From the NCBI GenBank assembly GCA_001421185.1, contig LJKK01000092.1, positions 1 through 64,000 of the forward strand: 64,000 nt of DNA, given 5' to 3'. Shown piece after piece: positions 32,971 through 45,542 of this stretch. The translations under genes were made by a program, and so were the position numbers. Position 1 is the first letter of the stretch; each line of letters begins with the position of its first letter. Source of the DNA: Methanomassiliicoccales archaeon RumEn M1 (GTDB lineage Archaea > Thermoplasmatota > Thermoplasmata > Methanomassiliicoccales > Methanomassiliicoccaceae). The notes under the pieces were generated by a model. The model did not search any database. It saw nothing but the letters and a program-made list of their open reading frames with translations, and was not told where the DNA came from.

Positions 32971-35900
32971 ATGACGGATCGGAACGGGGATGGTCCCGAT
33001 GTCAACGTAACGGACATCGGGGACTACGTGGACAAGAAGTGTTGCGAGCGGGACCTGAAGCTGCGGCTGATCATCCGCCGGGACCCTACCTCGCTGGACC
33101 GCATGTTCCCCCATCGTCACACTATAAGGGGCACCCTGGATCCCGTTCTCGCCACGTCCGGCCGCCTGAGGGAGAGGGAGACCGAGGCGGCCCTCTCGAA
33201 GCGGATGCGATGCCTCAATCCATCCAAGGAGGACGAGGAGAACAACATCCGATGGTCCAGCCTGCTGTCCGCCCTCCGGACGCTGGAGGAGGGGGAGGAG
33301 GTCTTCGCCCGGGAGGTGGAGATAGGCCGCCGCATCGGCCGCTACCGGGTGGCGGGCAGGATGGACTTCGTCATCCTCAGCTGGAAGGACGGGCAGCCGG
33401 TGCTGCGCATCGCGGAGTGCAAGGCCAGCAGGAAGGACAAGACCTATCACCGCATCCAGCTGGCCGCCTATCGGCTGATGGTGGAGGAGGAGCTTCGTGA
33501 GACGCCGCCGGTCATCGCCGGCAAGGTCCGGGAGGTCGTGCTGGAGGCGGCGGTGATCCGCATCGACAAGGACTCGCGCCGCACGCAGGACGTGCTGGAC
33601 ATACCGTCGCTGCCGCTAAGGGAGGAGATGGACGATATCCGCCGCCTGCTGGCCCCGGGCGGGCCGGTGGAGACTATCGACGCCACGCCGCTCGACGAGC
33701 TTAGCTTTCGTCTGGAGGAGAAGTGCGACAGCTGCGCGCACGATACGATATGCCTGCCCGAGAGCGAGCGGAGGGCGCGGCTGGAGCTGCTCGGCCTCGA
33801 CCCCGTCACGGTGCGCGCCCTGCGACATGGCGGCATCCAAGACCTTCTGGCGCTATCGGAGCTCGACCTGTCCTCCCCCCAGGCCTCGGCGGTGCGCAAC
33901 ACCCCGGCCTTCGGCGCCGACCTGGACGATCTGGTGAGGCGCGCCAGGGCGCGGCGCTCCACATTGCCCGAGAGGCGGAAGGACGACTACCAGGTGATGA
34001 ACCTGGGCCACCATGGCATCAGCCTGTTGCCCGCCCACCAGAACGACGCGGGCTTCCGCACCATACGGGTGTACCTCAACGTGGAGTATGATCACGTGGA
34101 GGACCGGCTGGTCGGCCTTAGCGCCCACCTCACCGACAGCGAGCGCACGATATCCACCGTCATGTACGGCGAGGAGCCCTACCCGAGGCCGATGGAGGAG
34201 CACGAGGGTACGCTAGAGCCGATGCAGGGTGTCTACGTCCTCAGGATGAGGGAGGAGGGCTGGAGCGGGGTCGTCGAGGATGACGACCGGGCCGAGGGAG
34301 AGATGGTCGCCTCCTTCTTCAACGGCCTGGGGAAGGCGATAGCGGCCATCGCCGGCAAGGACGAGTTCCGCCCGGTGCACTTCTACGTGTGGTCATCGAA
34401 GGAGATGACCTACCTGATCGAGTCCTGCTCCAGGGCCGGGGGGCCGCTGCTGCGCAGCCTCACCGAGCTGCTGGGCTGCCGGGAGAAATGCCGCGGCGAC
34501 CTCGAGCAGCTGATATACACGTCCATGAGCGACGAGATCTCTCGGAGCAGGGCGCTCGGCTTCACCTCGTTCAGCCTCCCCCTGGCGGCCAGCATCCGAT
34601 GGTATGGCCGATCGTTCCATTGGTGTCGAGAGGTCGACGGCGAGCCGGTCGACCTTGCCTATGCGTTCAGGCGCGACCTGTTCGACCATCGGGCGGCGCT
34701 CTACCTCACCGAGGACGGGGAATGGGCGCCCAAGGGCCGGAAGACCCCCGGCGCCCTGCGTCGGTACATGGAGGTGCACACGAGATTCCGCTCCGGCATC
34801 CCCGTGCCATACTGGTATGCCATGTGGGGCATCCTTCCCGACAAGGGCGAGTGGAAGGACCAGATGCTCCGCCGGGCCCTGGTCGACTACCGGCGCGGCG
34901 GCACTCCCAGCCTGATCAGGGCGTTCCTCATGGCCAAGTGCGAGGCGCTGCGATGGCTGGAGGAGCGCTTCGAGGCCAAGAATAGCCGGCTGGAAAAACC
35001 CATGGTCCCGGTGTACGAGCTGGAGAGCATGGAGCACCACTTCGCCGACCGCTACGACCTGGTGAGGGCGTGCCAGGACTTCCTTCGTTTGGACCATCAC
35101 CGGGACAAGAGCGAATGGCTGGCCGATCTGGCCCGCTCGCCGGCGGCCAGGGTGGCCGAGGGGACGTGCATACCGCTGCGGAACGTCCGCTTCCGCAAGG
35201 AGGGGAGGAGGATCGATCTCGAGGCGGACATCGACCTGGACAGGTTCGGCATCGGCATCCCCTCATTCCTTTCCATGTGCGGCCTGGACACCGGCATGAT
35301 GCGTATCGTTCCCTACGAGGGGGGCATCGAGCGAGGGCCCAGCGCATATCAGGCGCTGTACAAGGGCGTCACGGTTAACGTCACCGAACTGGACATCCCC
35401 CAGGGCATCTTCCGGGGAGAGGTCATACCGTACAGCGACAAGGGCCGGGGCTCCGATTACATCTTGAGCTCGATGGCCCCCCAGGACGGCCTCATGCCCT
35501 TCGCGCTGGCCGGCGAGTCCAAGTCGGCGTACGTCCGCGACCGGGTGGACCGGTGGCTCGACGTGAACCGGAACGCTCCCTCGATCAGGTGGTTCGAACC
35601 CATCGAGCCCTCCGTCCCGGTCCGCGCACCGCCGTCCAGGGAGCGGTTGGAGGCGTACCACCAGGTGCTGAGGGACCTCCGATTGCGCCACCATCCCCTG
35701 GACGATGTCCAGGTCCAGGCATGCCTGGAGGGGTTGAGCTCGACCGTGCAGCTGATGCTGGGGCCGCCCGGCACGGGCAAGACCAACACCGCCTCGGCGG
35801 CCGTCATGCTCCGCCTGGCGGCCCGGCCGGGGCACAAGCTGTTCCTTCTGTCGGCCACGACGCACACGGCGGTGGACGAGCTGTGCGGGCGGCTGCGCGA

Positions 35901-37071
35901 GGCGGTGCCCGAGTTCAGGAAGGCCGCCGACGCGGCCGGCGTCGACAACAATCCCGTGACGGTACTGAACATCAGGAGGGAGCCGATGGAGGAGGGCGAG
36001 ATCTCCTGCCACGACGTCTCCCTCATCAAGGAGCGCCTGGAGAGTGGCGACGTGGTCGTCTGCGGCACCGTCAACGACCTCCTCAAGCTGGGCGACGACT
36101 TCGACCGTTACCGGTGGCCCCGGGAGACGGCCCGGGCCGATGGACTGGTGGTGGACGAGGCGTCCATGATGGTCTTCCCCGACTTCCTGGCATTGTCCAC
36201 CCTGGTGGCCGAGGACGGGGAGATCATGCTGGCCGGCGACCACATGCAGCTGTCGCCCATCACCGCCCACGACTGGGAGCGCGAGACCAGGGAGCAGGTG
36301 GTGAGGATGTACCCGCACGACTCGGCGTACAAGGCCATGAGACGGCTGGGCGAGGTCTGCCCCGAGGGTGCGATACGGCAGTCGGCGCTGACCATCACCT
36401 ATCGCCTGACGCCCGAGCTCACCCACCTCATCTCGTCGGTGTACCTCAGGGAGGGCGTGAACCTGGTGTCCAGCAAAGGGTCGGTGCGGAAGAACGGGAG
36501 CCTAGCGTCGCTGGCGGACATATGGAGCTCGCCAGGCGTGTACCTGGCGGTGCACGACGAGTCGGCGTCCCGCAAGAGCAATCCCTTCGAGGCCGGCCTG
36601 ATACGCGACATCATCCTGGCGAGGGGCGTCGACGATGCAGAGGTGGTACCGGGGTCGATCTCCATCATCACCCCCCACCGGGCCCAGCGGGGGCTGCTCA
36701 AGGGAGCGCTCAGCGACCTGGCGTACCACATCCGGTTGATCGACACCGTTGAGCGGCTGCAGGGCGGGGAGTGCGAGACCATCATCGTGTCGGCCACCCA
36801 GAGCGATGCCTCGGCCATCAGCGGCAACGCCGAGTTCATCCTCGATCTGAACCGAACGAACGTCATCTTCTCCCGGGCGCAGGCCCGGCTGGTCGTGGTA
36901 TGCTCCAGGAACCTCCTCGACAGCATGCCGGCCGACTTCGACGACTACGCCTCGTCCATGCTGTGGAAGCACCTTCGCTCGGTGTGCGATCGCCCCATGC
37001 TCCAACTGCAAGGGTACGAGCACGAGGTCGAGGTGCGGGTCCCAAGCCGCTTCTGGGAGGGAGAGGGCTGA
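32971..37071 (+). CDS. Dna2-like Cas4/RecB nuclease - SF1 helicase fusion
   Basis: This 1366-residue protein combines three parts. The N-terminus (about 1-270) is a PD-(D/E)XK nuclease of the RecB/Cas4 type: GRMDFVIL supplies the Asp, AECKAS the Glu-x-Lys, and HRIQLAAYR the QxxxY motif. Cys24/25 together with C252, C255 and C261 (C-x2-C-x5-C) look like an AddB/Cas4-type 4Fe-4S cluster. The middle (about 330-560) has an RNase H-like stretch (RVYLNVEYD), as in TM0106-type proteins. The C-terminus is a UPF1/Dna2-like SF1 helicase with [10 protein letters not shown] (about residue 931), LVVDEAS, GDHMQLSP, and ERLQGGECETIIVS. A role in DNA end processing or replication repair is inferred. No CRISPR or toxin genes are near. 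Confidence 0.85.
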   Translation: MTDRNGDGPDVNVTDIGDYVDKKCCERDLKLRLIIRRDPTSLDRMFPHRHTIRGTLDPVLATSGRLRERETEAALSKRMRCLNPSKEDEENNIRWSSLLSALRTLEEGEEVFAREVEIGRRIGRYRVAGRMDFVILSWKDGQPVLRIAECKASRKDKTYHRIQLAAYRLMVEEELRETPPVIAGKVREVVLEAAVIRIDKDSRRTQDVLDIPSLPLREEMDDIRRLLAPGGPVETIDATPLDELSFRLEEKCDSCAHDTICLPESERRARLELLGLDPVTVRALRHGGIQDLLALSELDLSSPQASAVRNTPAFGADLDDLVRRARARRSTLPERRKDDYQVMNLGHHGISLLPAHQNDAGFRTIRVYLNVEYDHVEDRLVGLSAHLTDSERTISTVMYGEEPYPRPMEEHEGTLEPMQGVYVLRMREEGWSGVVEDDDRAEGEMVASFFNGLGKAIAAIAGKDEFRPVHFYVWSSKEMTYLIESCSRAGGPLLRSLTELLGCREKCRGDLEQLIYTSMSDEISRSRALGFTSFSLPLAASIRWYGRSFHWCREVDGEPVDLAYAFRRDLFDHRAALYLTEDGEWAPKGRKTPGALRRYMEVHTRFRSGIPVPYWYAMWGILPDKGEWKDQMLRRALVDYRRGGTPSLIRAFLMAKCEALRWLEERFEAKNSRLEKPMVPVYELESMEHHFADRYDLVRACQDFLRLDHHRDKSEWLADLARSPAARVAEGTCIPLRNVRFRKEGRRIDLEADIDLDRFGIGIPSFLSMCGLDTGMMRIVPYEGGIERGPSAYQALYKGVTVNVTELDIPQGIFRGEVIPYSDKGRGSDYILSSMAPQDGLMPFALAGESKSAYVRDRVDRWLDVNRNAPSIRWFEPIEPSVPVRAPPSRERLEAYHQVLRDLRLRHHPLDDVQVQACLEGLSSTVQLMLGPPGTGKTNTASAAVMLRLAARPGHKLFLLSATTHTAVDELCGRLREAVPEFRKAADAAGVDNNPVTVLNIRREPMEEGEISCHDVSLIKERLESGDVVVCGTVNDLLKLGDDFDRYRWPRETARADGLVVDEASMMVFPDFLALSTLVAEDGEIMLAGDHMQLSPITAHDWERETREQVVRMYPHDSAYKAMRRLGEVCPEGAIRQSALTITYRLTPELTHLISSVYLREGVNLVSSKGSVRKNGSLASLADIWSSPGVYLAVHDESASRKSNPFEAGLIRDIILARGVDDAEVVPGSISIITPHRAQRGLLKGALSDLAYHIRLIDTVERLQGGECETIIVSATQSDASAISGNAEFILDLNRTNVIFSRAQARLVVVCSRNLLDSMPADFDDYASSMLWKHLRSVCDRPMLQLQGYEHEVEVRVPSRFWEGEG

Positions 37072-40248: not shown

Positions 40249-41010
40249 TTATTTGGTTCTATTTCCGGTCGTCATGGCGCCGGCGAGGCCGGCACGATGG
40301 CCGTCCTCTGGGCGGTACGACACGTGCGTCCGGCGCCTGAACCTCTTGAACAGCGTGAGCACCGGGCGGCCCAGCACGGCGGCGAAGATGACGTTGCCCA
40401 CGACGTGCAGTATGCCATACGGTATGCCGGCCACCATCGTCGGCAGGAAGAGGTCCGGAACGGCCCGGTAGAACGTCAGCCAGCTGCTGAAGTCCATGAG
40501 GAGGTTGTACGCCAGTCCAAGGATGACGCCGAGGAATATCACGTGGGTGACTGTGACCTCGTCCTTGAGCCGCTTCCCGACCAGGGCCGAGATGATGCCC
40601 ACCATGCCCCAAGCCACCATCATCCATGGCGTCCACGGGCCGTGCCCGAAGAAGAAGTTGGACACTGCCGCGGTGGTGACCCCGGCCATGGCCCCGGCCA
40701 GGGAGCCGAAGATCAGGCCGGTGCAAATGATCAGGAAGGTGCACGGCTGTATGTTGGGCAGCGCGACGAAGGGGATCCGGGAGGCCGCGATTATGGCGCC
40801 CAGGATGCCGATCAGCGCCACCTCCTTGGAGCTTATCTCCGACTCCTCGAACCGGGCGAGGATGATCCCCACGACGAAGAGCAGCAGGATGAACGACAGG
40901 AAGGCCGCGTACGAGCTGAGCAGATGCTGCTGGAACATTGCCAGGTACAGCATCGCGCTGGCCATCACCAGCGTGGCCAGGACCATCAGGGTGCTAAGTT
41001 TCAGGCGCAT
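40249..41010 (-). CDS. ECF transporter substrate-binding S component
   Basis: This 253-residue integral membrane protein has about six or seven transmembrane helices and ends in a basic cytoplasmic tail. It has the loop-helix pattern of ECF S components (ALPNIQPCTFLIICTGLIFG is the central helix with a Pro-Cys kink, and SNFFFGHGPWTPWMM the aromatic loop). The S component sets the substrate. It follows ecfA by two bases with GGAGG in front, inside the five-gene operon. The substrate cannot be read from sequence; the linked DUF4430 proteins suggest a corrinoid. Confidence 0.82.
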   Translation of the reverse strand: MRLKLSTLMVLATLVMASAMLYLAMFQQHLLSSYAAFLSFILLLFVVGIILARFEESEISSKEVALIGILGAIIAASRIPFVALPNIQPCTFLIICTGLIFGSLAGAMAGVTTAAVSNFFFGHGPWTPWMMVAWGMVGIISALVGKRLKDEVTVTHVIFLGVILGLAYNLLMDFSSWLTFYRAVPDLFLPTMVAGIPYGILHVVGNVIFAAVLGRPVLTLFKRFRRRTHVSYRPEDGHRAGLAGAMTTGNRTK

Positions 41011-41011
41011 G

Positions 41012-42468
41012 TCAGGCCTCCGTTCCGCAGACCTTGACCAATTCCATCACCTTGGTCAGCGGCACCTCGGTCAGGGCGCCGCCATCGAGCGACAGGACGC
41101 GGGTGGCGTGCTCGGCCACGAAGCGGTAGTCGTGCGTCACCATCACCGTGGTCATTCCCTGCTCGCGCAACGTGGCCAGGATGGACGCCAGCCTCGCCTT
41201 GTTCCAGTGATCGAGGCCCCTGGTGGGCTCGTCCAGCACCAGGATCCTGGGGCGCCCGACCAGTATGGACGCCAGGGCTGCCCGTTCGCGCTCGCCGCAG
41301 CTGAGGTCCCTGGGGAATGAACGCCGATACCGCTCCAGATCTAGCATCCTCAGCGTCCAATCGATGCGTTCGGCCCATTCGGCCTCGGGCACCTTTAGGT
41401 TCCGGAGGGTGAACTGGAGCTCCATCTCCAGTGTGTCCTCGAAGAGGTAGTTGTTGGGGTTCTGCCCCAGATACCCGATGTCGCGCGCCAGGCTGGCCGT
41501 TGTCGCTTCAGAGATGTTCCTGCCCAACACCGCCACGGTGCCCTCGGCCGGACGCAGCAGGCCGTTCAGTTGCTTGAGGAGGGTGCTCTTGCCCGAGCCG
41601 TTGTGGCCGATGATAGCCACCACCTCCCGGTCCCTGACGTTGAGGTTTAGTCCCCTTAACACCGCATCTCGCTCGTAGGCGAAGGTTAGCCCCCGGGCGG
41701 ATAGGACGACGTCACCGAGACCGTTGCCCTGGACACCACGGTGGAAGTCGGCCACCAGGCGGTTCTTCCTCATGAGCGGCATGACCTCGTCGGGCGTGCC
41801 GTCGGCGATCACGCGGCCCGATTCCATGAACAGGACGCGGTCGGCATAGGACAGGCACCTCTCCAGGCGGTGCTCCACTAGGATGATGCCGATGCCCTGG
41901 TCACTGTTGAGCCTGTGAAGGAAGTCCAGGTACATGCTGGCCGACTCGTCGTCCAGCTGCGACGTGGGCTCGTCCAGGACTATGTACCGGGGCCTCATGG
42001 CTAGCACCGAGGCCAGGGCCACCTTCTGCTTCTCCCCGCCCGACAACTGGGGGATGAACCGCTCCAGGAAGGGGTCGAGGCCAAAGTACTCGGAGTATTC
42101 GGTGATACGACCCTGGATCTCCTCCCGGGGCAGCGCCAGGTTCTCCAGGCCGAAGGCCATCTCGTTCTCTACGTTGGTCATGACCAGCTGGTTCTCGGGG
42201 TCCTGGAAGACCATCCCTACGATGCTGGCCATCTTGGCCGGCGGCGTTCTCCGGGTATCGAGGCCGTCCACCGTCACCCGCCCTCCGACCTCCCCGCCAT
42301 AGAAGTGGGGGATGAGGCCGTTGAACGAGCGTATGAGCGTGGACTTGCCGGAACCGGATGCGCCGACGATGAGGAGGAACTCGTTCTCTCTCACCTCAAG
42401 GCTCACGTCGTCAAGGACGGGGCGTCCTTACCGGAGTAGGTGAACGAGAATCGCTCCATGCTGATCAT
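41012..42468 (-). CDS. ecfA: ECF transporter fused ATPase subunits A-A', frameshifted near start
   Basis: Two ABC ATPase domains are fused in one chain of about 485 residues. Domain 1 has GASGSGKST, LSGGEKQKVAL and VLDEPTSQLD; domain 2 has GHNGSGKST, LSCGERERAAL and VLDEPTRGLD. They power the ECF importer. The apparent start at 42406 misses the first beta strands. Upstream, ATG 42468 (overlapping the ecfT stop as ATGA) reads MISMERFSFTYSGKDAP, then the frame breaks. Adding one base to the four-G run at 42419-42422 joins it to VLDDVSLEV. This is most likely a sequencing error. Confidence 0.88.
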
Positions 42469-43343
42469 TGGCGGCCCCCCAGCAGTATGGGCGTGAAGAA
42501 CAGTATCTCGACCGCCGCCACCGTCGCTCCCGCGGCCGTGATGACCAGAGGCTCGCCGGCCAGATAGTTGACGTTACCGTATCCCATGATGAACATGGCG
42601 ACGCCGAAGGGGATGGCCAGCAGGAAGGATATCATCATCAGCCGGTCCGCGGTCCGCAGGGCAGGGTCCTTGTACCGAGAGCGTTTTCCGGCGCCGAAGC
42701 CGCGGGCCTCCATGGCCTCGGCGATGTCCATGGACCGCTCCATGGAGTTCATGAGCAGGGGCATCATGACCGGCGCCCTCGCTCTGGCCCTCCGCACGAA
42801 GCTGCCGTCGTCGAACTCCACCCCCCTCGCCTTCATGGCGTCCGATATGGCGGCCGAGTCGGCGGCGATGGTCGGGTACATCCTGGTAGCGATGGAGACG
42901 CCAGTCATGGACTTGAAGCCCAGTCTCGATAGGATGCGGAGTAGATCATCCGGATGCACCGTGAACGTGAGGACGGCGAACGCCACCACTGACAGGACGA
43001 GCCTCAGGGACATGCTGATGGAGAAGAGGACCGGACCCTCGGTGATCTTGACGATGCCCAGATCGAGCAGTACGGGACCGACCGAGGGCGTGAAGATGAT
43101 GCTGAACAGGAAGAGGAACGCCACCACGTAGATGGTGTACTTCAGCAGGCCCAGTGTCTCGCGCGCCACTCGCCCTCTGGCCACCACCGTCAATGCCAGT
43201 ACGAGCATGGCCGAGAGATACAGTATGTCCGATATCAGGATGGAGAGGAGGAAGAATGCCAGTACGAACACCATCTTGGGCCTGGCGTCCAGCCGGTGGA
43301 GGGGCGTGTCCTTGTCCTGATATGGGAACAGCATGGGCATCAA
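42465..43343 (-). CDS. ecfT: ECF transporter transmembrane T component
   Basis: EcfT couples ATP hydrolysis to the S component. The 292 residues contain several transmembrane helices and the two Ala-Arg-Gly coupling motifs, in AMKARGVEF and EAMEARGFG (preceded by MNSMERSMDIA). These helices touch the ATPase grooves. The length is typical. Its stop overlaps the ecfA start, and 13 bases separate it from the DUF4430 gene upstream. Confidence 0.9.
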   Translation of the reverse strand: MMPMLFPYQDKDTPLHRLDARPKMVFVLAFFLLSILISDILYLSAMLVLALTVVARGRVARETLGLLKYTIYVVAFLFLFSIIFTPSVGPVLLDLGIVKITEGPVLFSISMSLRLVLSVVAFAVLTFTVHPDDLLRILSRLGFKSMTGVSIATRMYPTIAADSAAISDAMKARGVEFDDGSFVRRARARAPVMMPLLMNSMERSMDIAEAMEARGFGAGKRSRYKDPALRTADRLMMISFLLAIPFGVAMFIMGYGNVNYLAGEPLVITAAGATVAAVEILFFTPILLGGRQ

Positions 43344-43356
43344 CTACTCGAGCCGG

Positions 43357-43863
43357 TCATAGATCGTACTGATTGGGCATGTACTTCCAGACGACCTCAG
43401 AGCCTTCCGTTAAGGGGTACTTGTTGCAGGCGCGATTGGCATACTGCTCATCGACCAGGAACTGCCAGGCCCTCTCGCCGTTGCTGATGTCAGGATCATT
43501 GTTCTCGATCCCGTCGATGGCCGTAACGAGGAGACCCTGGACCTGGCTGTCCACCTCCACCGTGAAGCCGGCGATGGACGCGGCGGCCGTGAGCATGTCA
43601 TAGCTGCTGGTCATGTTGGTCAGCCCCTTGAACACCCAGGTGGTATTGCCGCCGTTGGCCGTCGTGGTGTACGTCCACTTCCCGCCGTCGTTGGTCCATA
43701 CGGTCAGGTTGCCACGGTGGATGGTGGCAGGGGCGTCGTACAGCTCGATCGTCATGTCGCCGCTGACCGGTTCGGATGCGTTCCCCTGCAGGTAGACCAC
43801 AAGGAGAAGCCCCATGACGATGACCAGGACGGCGGTCGTCAAGATGGTGGTGCTTTTCCTCAT
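43357..43863 (-). CDS. Membrane-anchored DUF4430 (transcobalamin-like) protein
   Basis: This 168-residue protein has an N-terminal membrane anchor or signal (about residues 7-27) and an extracellular domain with the DUF4430 pattern. That pattern is a central AGFTVEVDSQVQGLLVTAIDGIENND, split by the usual Gly and Ile positions, followed by RAWQFLVDEQYANRACNKYPLTEGSEVVWKY, where the trailing segment recalls the 'wxfyvNg' strand. DUF4430 is related to the beta domain of transcobalamin and intrinsic factor, which cap cobalamin. It is the second gene of the ECF operon. I infer that it presents substrate to the S component. Confidence 0.78.
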   Translation of the reverse strand: MRKSTTILTTAVLVIVMGLLLVVYLQGNASEPVSGDMTIELYDAPATIHRGNLTVWTNDGGKWTYTTTANGGNTTWVFKGLTNMTSSYDMLTAAASIAGFTVEVDSQVQGLLVTAIDGIENNDPDISNGERAWQFLVDEQYANRACNKYPLTEGSEVVWKYMPNQYDL

Positions 43864-43865
43864 GT

Positions 43866-45518
43866 TCAGGCCTTCTTTCTCCAGTACATCAGGCCGACCG
43901 CGACGATGAAGATGACAGCAGCAATGCCACCGAGCAGCAGCCACGGGAACTCCTCAGGAGCGTCCTCCGGCCCAGGAGTGATTATTTCCTCGCTGCCTGT
44001 GCTGAGCGCGTAGACGTAGCCGTTGTTGGAAGTCACGAACAAGAAGCCGTCGATGAACGTCGGGGCGCACATCGCATAGTTGGCTGGTTCCAGAACGACC
44101 TCCTTGACCATCTTTCCCGTCAGGTCGACAGCCACCAGGCGGCTGGACTCCTCGTTGGTTACGGCGAAGATTGTATCACCGACAACGGTAGGCGCGCCAC
44201 CCCCGAACGTCTCACCGAGGGAGTAGTTCCACAGTTTGTCGCCGTCGAGGTCCATCATTATGATGTCGGTAGCAGTGGCCGCAACGTAGCCTACCGATGA
44301 AAGCGCAGCGGACGCCGAGGTGCCGCCGATGTGGGTCTGCCAGTCGATAGCTCCAGTGGTGAAGTTCAGCGCGGTCATGTTTCCGTTGGCGCCGGACGAT
44401 GTCACGATGACGCGGTCATTATCAGCGTCCACAAGAGGCGAGGCGCGGACCTTTCCGCCAACGGTGGTGGACCACAGGTACGAGCCGTCGTCCGCGTAAG
44501 CGCTGACATTGCCAGAGTCGTCGCCGATAAAGATGACCCCCTCATGGATGGCGGGTGATGAGGAGTAGATCGTCTGAGAGACGGTGACGTTCCAGTTCTC
44601 TGCGCCATCGGCGGCGTTTATGGAGAACATTTTCCCATTGCCAGCCGCGACGATGATGCTGTTGACGTACGCAACAGGTGAAGAGGTTATTCCGAAGGTG
44701 CTAGCGGAACCGGTGTCGAAGGTCCACACCTCCTCTCCGTCGGCTGCATCGAACGCGTAAAGCTTCCCATCAGCAGATGGGGCGATCACCATCTCACCAT
44801 ACAGCAGTGGGGTGGCAACCTGGAAGCCAGTACCGACGTCCTTGTTCCAGACGATCTTGCCAGTCGTGTCGAGGCAGAACAATGAGGAGTTCGAGGCAAA
44901 GCTCCAATCTTCATTCAGAAGTCCTCCAGTTATCACATACAGAAGGCCGTTAGCCCCGATCACCGAGCTGCTGATGGCACCGTTGCCGAGGTCCTTGGAC
45001 CAGTTCAGAGCTGGATGGTCGATGTTGCCAAACTCTTGTGACCCGGCATTCATGGCATCATATCGGAAGCTGGCCCAGGGGTAGCGATGCTCAGGGGTGG
45101 CCAGAGGCATGGGTCCTCCCCAAGCATCATACTTCCAAGCCAGGGCCTCGAGATCGTCTGCCGGAACTGCGTCCGCGCCCGACATCGAGGACTCCCATCT
45201 AGCGGTGGTAGAGTTCCAGATAATGAATCCCCAGAACTGGCCGGTGGCAGGGTTGTAGTCCATCCCCTCGATCGGACCGACCATTACACCAAATGTAGAC
45301 TCGGAATATTGCAGGTCTATGTCGAGCATGTCCGCTGCTTCCGCGGTCACATTGAACGCGTTCATGTCCTCGGTCACTGGAACGTCGGCCCACATGACCC
45401 GCCCGTTCCCGAAGTCGAACAGGACCGCGCAGGTGTCCTCCTCTTCAGCGGCACTAACCGTGCCAGCAAAGGTCGCCAGCACCATCATTCCCACGATCAG
45501 ACCTGCAAGGAACCTCAT
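43866..45518 (-). CDS. Secreted PQQ-like beta-propeller with DUF4430-like N-terminus and C-terminal anchor
   Basis: First gene of the ECF operon, about 550 residues. A signal peptide (MRFLAGLIVGMMVL to SAAEEED) is followed by a domain (about 30-140) that resembles DUF4430, with FNVTAEAADML, FGVMVGPIEGMDY and a GFIIWNSTTARWE strand. Then comes a beta-propeller of about seven PQQ-like blades (repeats such as DGKLYAFDAADGEEVWTF and DGSYLWSTTVGGKV), and a C-terminal transmembrane helix before YWRKKA. It would be held outside the cell membrane. The start could also be ATG 45530, four codons upstream. A substrate-capture role for the ECF importer is inferred from the operon. Confidence 0.78.
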   Translation of the reverse strand: MRFLAGLIVGMMVLATFAGTVSAAEEEDTCAVLFDFGNGRVMWADVPVTEDMNAFNVTAEAADMLDIDLQYSESTFGVMVGPIEGMDYNPATGQFWGFIIWNSTTARWESSMSGADAVPADDLEALAWKYDAWGGPMPLATPEHRYPWASFRYDAMNAGSQEFGNIDHPALNWSKDLGNGAISSSVIGANGLLYVITGGLLNEDWSFASNSSLFCLDTTGKIVWNKDVGTGFQVATPLLYGEMVIAPSADGKLYAFDAADGEEVWTFDTGSASTFGITSSPVAYVNSIIVAAGNGKMFSINAADGAENWNVTVSQTIYSSSPAIHEGVIFIGDDSGNVSAYADDGSYLWSTTVGGKVRASPLVDADNDRVIVTSSGANGNMTALNFTTGAIDWQTHIGGTSASAALSSVGYVAATATDIIMMDLDGDKLWNYSLGETFGGGAPTVVGDTIFAVTNEESSRLVAVDLTGKMVKEVVLEPANYAMCAPTFIDGFLFVTSNNGYVYALSTGSEEIITPGPEDAPEEFPWLLLGGIAAVIFIVAVGLMYWRKKA

Positions 45519-45542
45519 GAATGATACCATCCTAGATCGTTA

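Follow-up and report, generated by a model that had tools for sequence, protein, structure and literature searches.

Known corrinoid uptake systems and the operon of RumEn M1

In Lactobacillus delbrueckii, cbrT has nrdJ/pduO alongside, and Bacteroides carries BtuG, a surface B12-binding beta-propeller. The energy-coupling factor (ECF) complex ECF-CbrT of L. delbrueckii (6FNP) imports cobalamin and cobinamide, and CbrT draws on an ECF module common to several S components (PMC5997447). Vertebrates carry B12 on haptocorrin, transcobalamin and intrinsic factor, and crystals show cobalamin and cobinamide bound to the isolated beta domain of human transcobalamin (PMC5599065). For Methanomassiliicoccales, a published account of B12 discusses BtuFCD, and the term ECF is absent from it (PMC10804542). 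Here we analysed a stretch of 64,000 nucleotides (nt) of contig LJKK01000092.1 (positions 1 to 64,000, the window) from the Methanomassiliicoccales archaeon RumEn M1, the host. On its minus strand (45530-40249) lies a five-gene operon, PROP-D4430-EcfT-EcfAA'-S, which probably encodes an importer of the ECF type, equipped with surface binding proteins of its own, that takes up corrinoids (cobamides and/or cobinamide-like precursors). The features are as follows.

43866..45530, minus strand: PROP, a 554-residue surface protein with signal peptide, N-domain, BamB/PQQ-type beta-propeller and C-terminal membrane anchor
45081..45437, minus strand: N-domain of PROP, 119 residues, transcobalamin-beta-like (DUF4430-like); this segment was modelled with a pLDDT (predicted local distance difference test) of 95
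43357..43863, minus strand: D4430, 168 residues, N-terminally anchored, with DUF4430 (PF14478 E=1e-8, over cut-off)
42465..43343, minus strand: EcfT, transmembrane coupling protein (PF02361 E=1.4e-25; orthologues in relatives)
41012..42468, minus strand: EcfAA', fused ATPase with two ABC_tran domains (TIGR04520/04521 over cut-off)
40249..41010, minus strand: S component, CbrT-like, 253 residues (PF07155 3.3e-13, PF20221; profile match to CbrT 6FNP)

The operon resembles ECF-CbrT in its S component, which is related by profile and has motifs in common with CbrT, and in the same EcfT/EcfA/EcfA' logic. It differs in that the ATPases are fused, T, AA' and S stand together in a dedicated operon, and two surface proteins are added. 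With the vertebrate carriers, the predicted N-domain has the beta-domain fold in common, and D4430 is homologous to the N-domain. In contrast to those carriers, the window proteins have no toroid and are membrane-anchored rather than secreted, and in PROP the N-domain is joined to a propeller. The predicted N-domain also has the same fold as RUMGNA_00854 of Ruminococcus gnavus (3U7Z), which was deposited as a putative metal-binding protein and for which we know of no tested function. BtuFCD has the same presumed purpose, corrinoid uptake, but uses an unrelated FecCD permease and a conventional substrate-binding protein; Pfam found no FecCD permease or BtuF-type binding protein domain in the five operon proteins.

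The operon had been proposed from an earlier sequence-only reading, with overlaps or gaps of 13 bases or fewer. Its coordinates were right, the domains were identified by Pfam/NCBIfam, and the gene order was repeated in orthologous loci. Two nt separate the PROP stop from the ATG of D4430 at 43863, a corrected start replacing GTG 43944, and 13 nt separate D4430 from the TTG of EcfT at 43343. The EcfT stop overlaps the EcfAA' ATG at 42468 by 4 nt (ATGA), and S begins at ATG 41010, 1 nt after EcfAA'. The proposed spacing stands with these starts; at the EcfT-EcfAA' junction the gap is 58 nt if GTG 42406 is taken literally as the EcfAA' start. PF02361 places EcfT in the ECF class, and the two ABC_tran domains with TIGR04520/04521 place the ATPase pair there, with an N-terminus that is frame-shifted in the present assembly.

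The S component is related to CbrT

When S was searched as a single sequence against PDB sequences, CbrT (6FNP) was found with E=7.7e-10. With the S profile, CbrT was the sole significant match (E=7.6e-14); the others were at E=0.9 or worse, and the next S component, 4HZU, was at E=3.4. By sequence, S is of the CbrT type, and the profile did not match thiamine, queuosine or other S classes. S and CbrT have the motifs PN-QP-T and SN-FLG-G-WT--Q in common, the conserved S motifs PNIQPCTF and SN-FLGQGPWT--QM aligning with PNVQPVTD and SNIFLGFGIWTLPQI of CbrT. An extra N-terminal stretch of ~50 residues is present in S relative to CbrT. The model of S (pLDDT 83) has the six-helix S fold, and in Foldseek its matches with probability >0.9 were all S components, with E never below 0.016.

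The surface proteins are predicted to resemble the beta domain of B12 carriers

Both surface proteins had been read as DUF4430 proteins, which Pfam confirmed for D4430. In PROP, DUF4430 was not found by Pfam; it was recognised there by hhalign, in which the D4430 alignment matched the N-domain alignment (prob 95.5, E 1.3e-8), and by the predicted fold. A structure of the N-domain, predicted with 12 orthologues as input, was compared with the PDB by Foldseek. Ranks 1-19 were beta domains of haptocorrin, transcobalamin and intrinsic factor, together with RUMGNA_00854 (E 2.8e-4 to 3e-3; TM-score up to 0.71 by query length). Matches beyond rank 19 were unrelated, mostly ubiquitin-like folds, at E 1.8e-2 and above. 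A transcobalamin-family beta domain is thus recognised in the N-domain by its predicted fold, and in D4430 by Pfam and hhalign. No alpha/alpha-toroid (PF01122-type) domain was found by Pfam in the window proteins, and we therefore do not file them as members of the transcobalamin, intrinsic factor or haptocorrin family. Because the D4430 and N-domain profiles gave no significant B12-carrier match among PDB sequences (intrinsic factor only at E=1.2), the link to B12 carriers rests on fold and Pfam and not on similarity of sequence.

The PROP propeller is of the PQQ_2/BamB type. If it serves B12 uptake, BtuG would be a functional parallel in a different cell envelope, and a BtuG-like role might be guessed by analogy. 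No BtuG-labelled chain was among the PDB matches to PROP, and no direct comparison with BtuG was made.

Some D4430 orthologues have an N-terminal lipobox-like cysteine, and in one orthologue (L028 6392-7252) the N-terminal segment is apparently present in three copies. At another locus (L133 12037-13926), two tandem N-domains occur in one protein, beside a propeller-DUF4430 fusion, EcfT, EcfAA' and S.

Conservation of the operon and loss of corrin-ring genes

The survey of Methanomassiliicoccales covered 147 genomes, and a clear S orthologue was present in 19; the match in G069 reached only 7e-5 and was not counted. The order PROP-D4430-EcfT-EcfAA'-S was found in every orthologous locus with enough sequence in three families, 14 loci in all, a few of which touch a contig end or a run of N. 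S identity goes down to ~46% among the orthologous loci, and the gene order is more than chance because it is the same in orthologous loci at ~50% S identity. In G130 the unit was split across two contig ends with the same gene order, and the loci of G003, G007 and G128 were incomplete. G020 has a more distant, variant locus, in which EcfT, EcfAA' and S are accompanied by a 346-residue DUF4430 protein and by several large surface proteins in a row. These lie beyond EcfT and the DUF4430 protein (L088, G020:C30 62000-81900) and are paralogous, with PKD-like and propeller repeats and two regions with DUF4430. The named relatives from an S-alignment search of genome contigs were Methanomassiliicoccales; a pattern scan of genome contigs with PROP gave no relative.

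DUF4430 and S occurred together in 16 of the 147 genomes, S only in 3, DUF4430 only in 3 and neither in 125 (Fisher 9e-16); the three S-only cases are all on truncated or N-containing loci, and the three DUF4430-only cases are weak matches. CbiC and CobS were both absent from 10 of the 19 S carriers versus 9 of the 128 non-carriers (p=5e-6), and for single genes the association of absence with S carriage gave p=0.024 (CbiC) and p=5e-5 (CobS); the co-occurrence p-values ignore shared ancestry, and most of the double losses belong to family f3 and to two genera of family f6. Corrinoid-protein domains were kept in nine of the ten carriers without CbiC and CobS, the exception being a 63%-complete genome.

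In the host genome CbiC is absent, and two TP_methylases are present versus 6-8 in five genus mates. In two of its genus mates (G009, G011), an eight-gene cbi cluster and BtuFCD lie between purF and a HEAT-repeat-like gene, with the flanks ~10.5 kb apart. The same flanks lie 0.86 kb apart in the host on one gap-free contig, C8 (L155, G000:C8, 10478-11337, versus L147 4322-14873 and L146), with a tRNA-like sequence at the junction. As no further copies were found, the corrin-ring genes appear to be really lost and not unassembled; the host appears to have lost the cluster, roughly 10 kb long, by clean deletion. It keeps CobS, a CbiP-like gene, two CbiMNQO-like clusters and nine B12-binding_2 (corrinoid-protein) domains, and it is expected to import a corrinoid, whether complete or incomplete. 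FecCD was tried as a discriminating marker and dropped, because it is present in 144 of the 147 genomes.

Beyond the order, an S relative at E<=1e-12 was found in 146 of 390 Thermoplasmatota. A DUF4430/N-domain protein beside S was clear at 16, weak at 1 and absent at 1 of the 18 sampled Thermoplasmatota loci, which were those not truncated on the relevant side. In families f35 and f43 (L139-L144), probably marine group II archaea, S is accompanied by an anchored DUF4430 protein (<=217 residues) or a propeller-DUF4430 fusion, and EcfT/EcfAA' are often not nearby. Marine group II was reported to be without cobalamin synthesis (PMC10160649). S relatives with DUF4430-type neighbours were also found in Aciduliprofundum, other Thermoplasmata, a Bathyarchaeota and a Bacillota contig; in the last of these the DUF4430-type neighbours were recognised by eye only. 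At one Bathyarchaeota locus (L055 3-3182), the genes for a second DUF4430 protein and S are preceded by that of a 1059-residue protein combining alpha/alpha-toroid repeats with DUF4430, an architecture known from the vertebrate B12 carriers. The toroid was detected as Prenyltrans (1.9e-8), with PF01122 only at E 0.0085, and by sequence the PDB matches of this protein were squalene cyclases and no transcobalamin. In the products of the D4430 genes of L054, L055 and L056, an extra domain of ~150-190 residues that has no Pfam match comes after DUF4430.

Proposed function and alternative explanations

The inferred corrinoid substrate put forward in the sequence-only reading is well supported by the CbrT profile match, the N-domain fold and the host gene losses. 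The doubts attached to that reading, that S might group with another substrate class or the surface proteins lack a DUF4430/transcobalamin fold, did not materialise: the S profile found CbrT alone, and the N-domain model matched the beta domains of B12 carriers. The survey of gene order in other Methanomassiliicoccales that it proposed gave the 14 loci (with G020 as a variant), and its point that a methylotrophic methanogen depends on corrinoid proteins fits the nine B12-binding_2 domains in a genome from which the corrin-ring cluster is gone. In the proposed mechanism, extracellular corrinoid would be captured by the PROP N-domain and the membrane-anchored D4430, which would hand it on to the CbrT-like S component. 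By toppling on the EcfT/EcfAA' motor within the membrane, S would then deliver the corrinoid into the cell. The surface domains, presumed to bind corrinoid and hand it over to S, would likely be the capture step; the propeller may also play some part, and, as a speculation, S could supply the other half of the binding site.

It is unlikely that the ECF part imports corrinoid while PROP and D4430 are structural, sensory or docking proteins that do not bind substrate. Such a role would suit the BamB-type propeller, BamB being a scaffold protein in bacteria, the absence of the alpha/alpha-toroid half from both proteins, and the general design of ECF specificity subunits, which are membrane proteins and dispense with the soluble binding proteins found in other ABC importers (PMC7299338). 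However, the lone transcobalamin beta domain binds corrinoids (PMC5599065), and the DUF4430 partner stays beside S also at loci without the other operon genes.

Another explanation, which we consider rather improbable, is that the operon is decaying in the present host and the importer is inactive. The EcfAA' frame from ATG 42468, reading MISMERFSFTYSGKD, closes after ~21 codons, while the same region is open in five relatives by frame comparison; the frame of the remaining EcfAA' opens only downstream. An apparent one-base shift, absent from the earlier note, lies near 42425-42432 within a short C run, and because of this shift in the ATG 42468 frame the listed start is GTG 42406. The shift may be an assembly error or a genuine mutation. 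Assembly errors are common in short C runs, and the remaining four genes are all intact. Moreover, the host lost corrin-ring synthesis, and uptake should therefore be under selection.

Transport of a different vitamin, such as riboflavin, is highly unlikely. PF07155 is named for the S component of an ECF-type riboflavin transporter, and TmRibU was among the best fold matches of the S model, but riboflavin was discarded as the substrate on the score of the curated riboflavin model PRK13661, 27.4 versus a cut-off of 99; the S profile finds CbrT and not RibU, and the transcobalamin-beta fold of the partner would be left unexplained. Another tetrapyrrole (heme, porphyrin or an F430-type compound) is the least probable substrate: an ECF heme importer, LhaSTA, exists (PMC7299338) and heme and corrinoids are structurally related, but hemin does not inhibit cobalamin uptake by CbrT (PMC5997447), the surface fold matches B12 carriers and not heme binders, and the distribution tracks the loss of cobalamin synthesis genes.

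Several observations weigh against a corrinoid importer. One BtuFCD-like operon is kept in the host (contig C7); there may thus be two routes, and uptake may not depend on the ECF system alone. The EcfAA' frameshift, if real, would disable the transporter in the present host. A comparison of the S structure with CbrT, BtuM and CblT had been suggested; the S fold was predicted, but the fold search did not single out CbrT and also found FolT, RibU, HmpT, ThiT and BioY. This search does not separate substrates and was dropped as a substrate test. Within the order, CbiC is present in 7 of the 19 S carriers, and G134 has one TP_methylase and seven corrinoid domains, yet is without S. Outside the order, the presence of CbiC in 0 of 31 tested S carriers speaks for the corrinoid reading, but this count covers carriers only. 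No B12-related gene was seen among the genes inspected in or beside the window operon.

The genes around the operon appear to encode an M3-type peptidase, a pirin-like protein and citrate synthase. The M3-type peptidase gene starts 34 nt past S and was excluded from the conserved unit because it is adjacent only in genus-level loci; the pirin-like gene lies upstream of the operon in divergent orientation. At some other loci, methyltransferase-like genes are close by. A cobalamin riboswitch was not found in the window by Rfam, the single kind of match being a tRNA. Further along the window (32971-37071), a 1366-residue open reading frame resembles a helicase-nuclease, and a similar-looking 1544-residue gene lies near the S locus of L030 (2602-7236).

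Significance

The portions seen of the literature naming DUF4430 give no prokaryotic function for it, and no literature combining transcobalamin, ECF transporter and lipoprotein was found in the library searched. The parts are known, and the combination, in which transcobalamin-beta-like surface proteins join a probable corrinoid importer of the CbrT-type ECF kind, is new. A wider proposal can be made only tentatively, and we consider it doubtful: archaea and some bacteria may have a family of B12 uptake systems in which corrinoids are captured by transcobalamin-beta-like surface proteins and loaded onto a CbrT-like S component, which would take the place of the missing alpha domain as the other half of the binding site. 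Such systems would be a main B12 route of Thermoplasmatota including marine group II, and a prokaryotic equivalent of the B12 carriers of humans. If the operon is a corrinoid importer of the kind proposed, DUF4430 surface proteins would gain a function and ECF importers would gain dedicated surface binders. Corrinoid-using archaea that are unable to make corrinoids, probably including marine group II, would gain a testable route of B12 entry.

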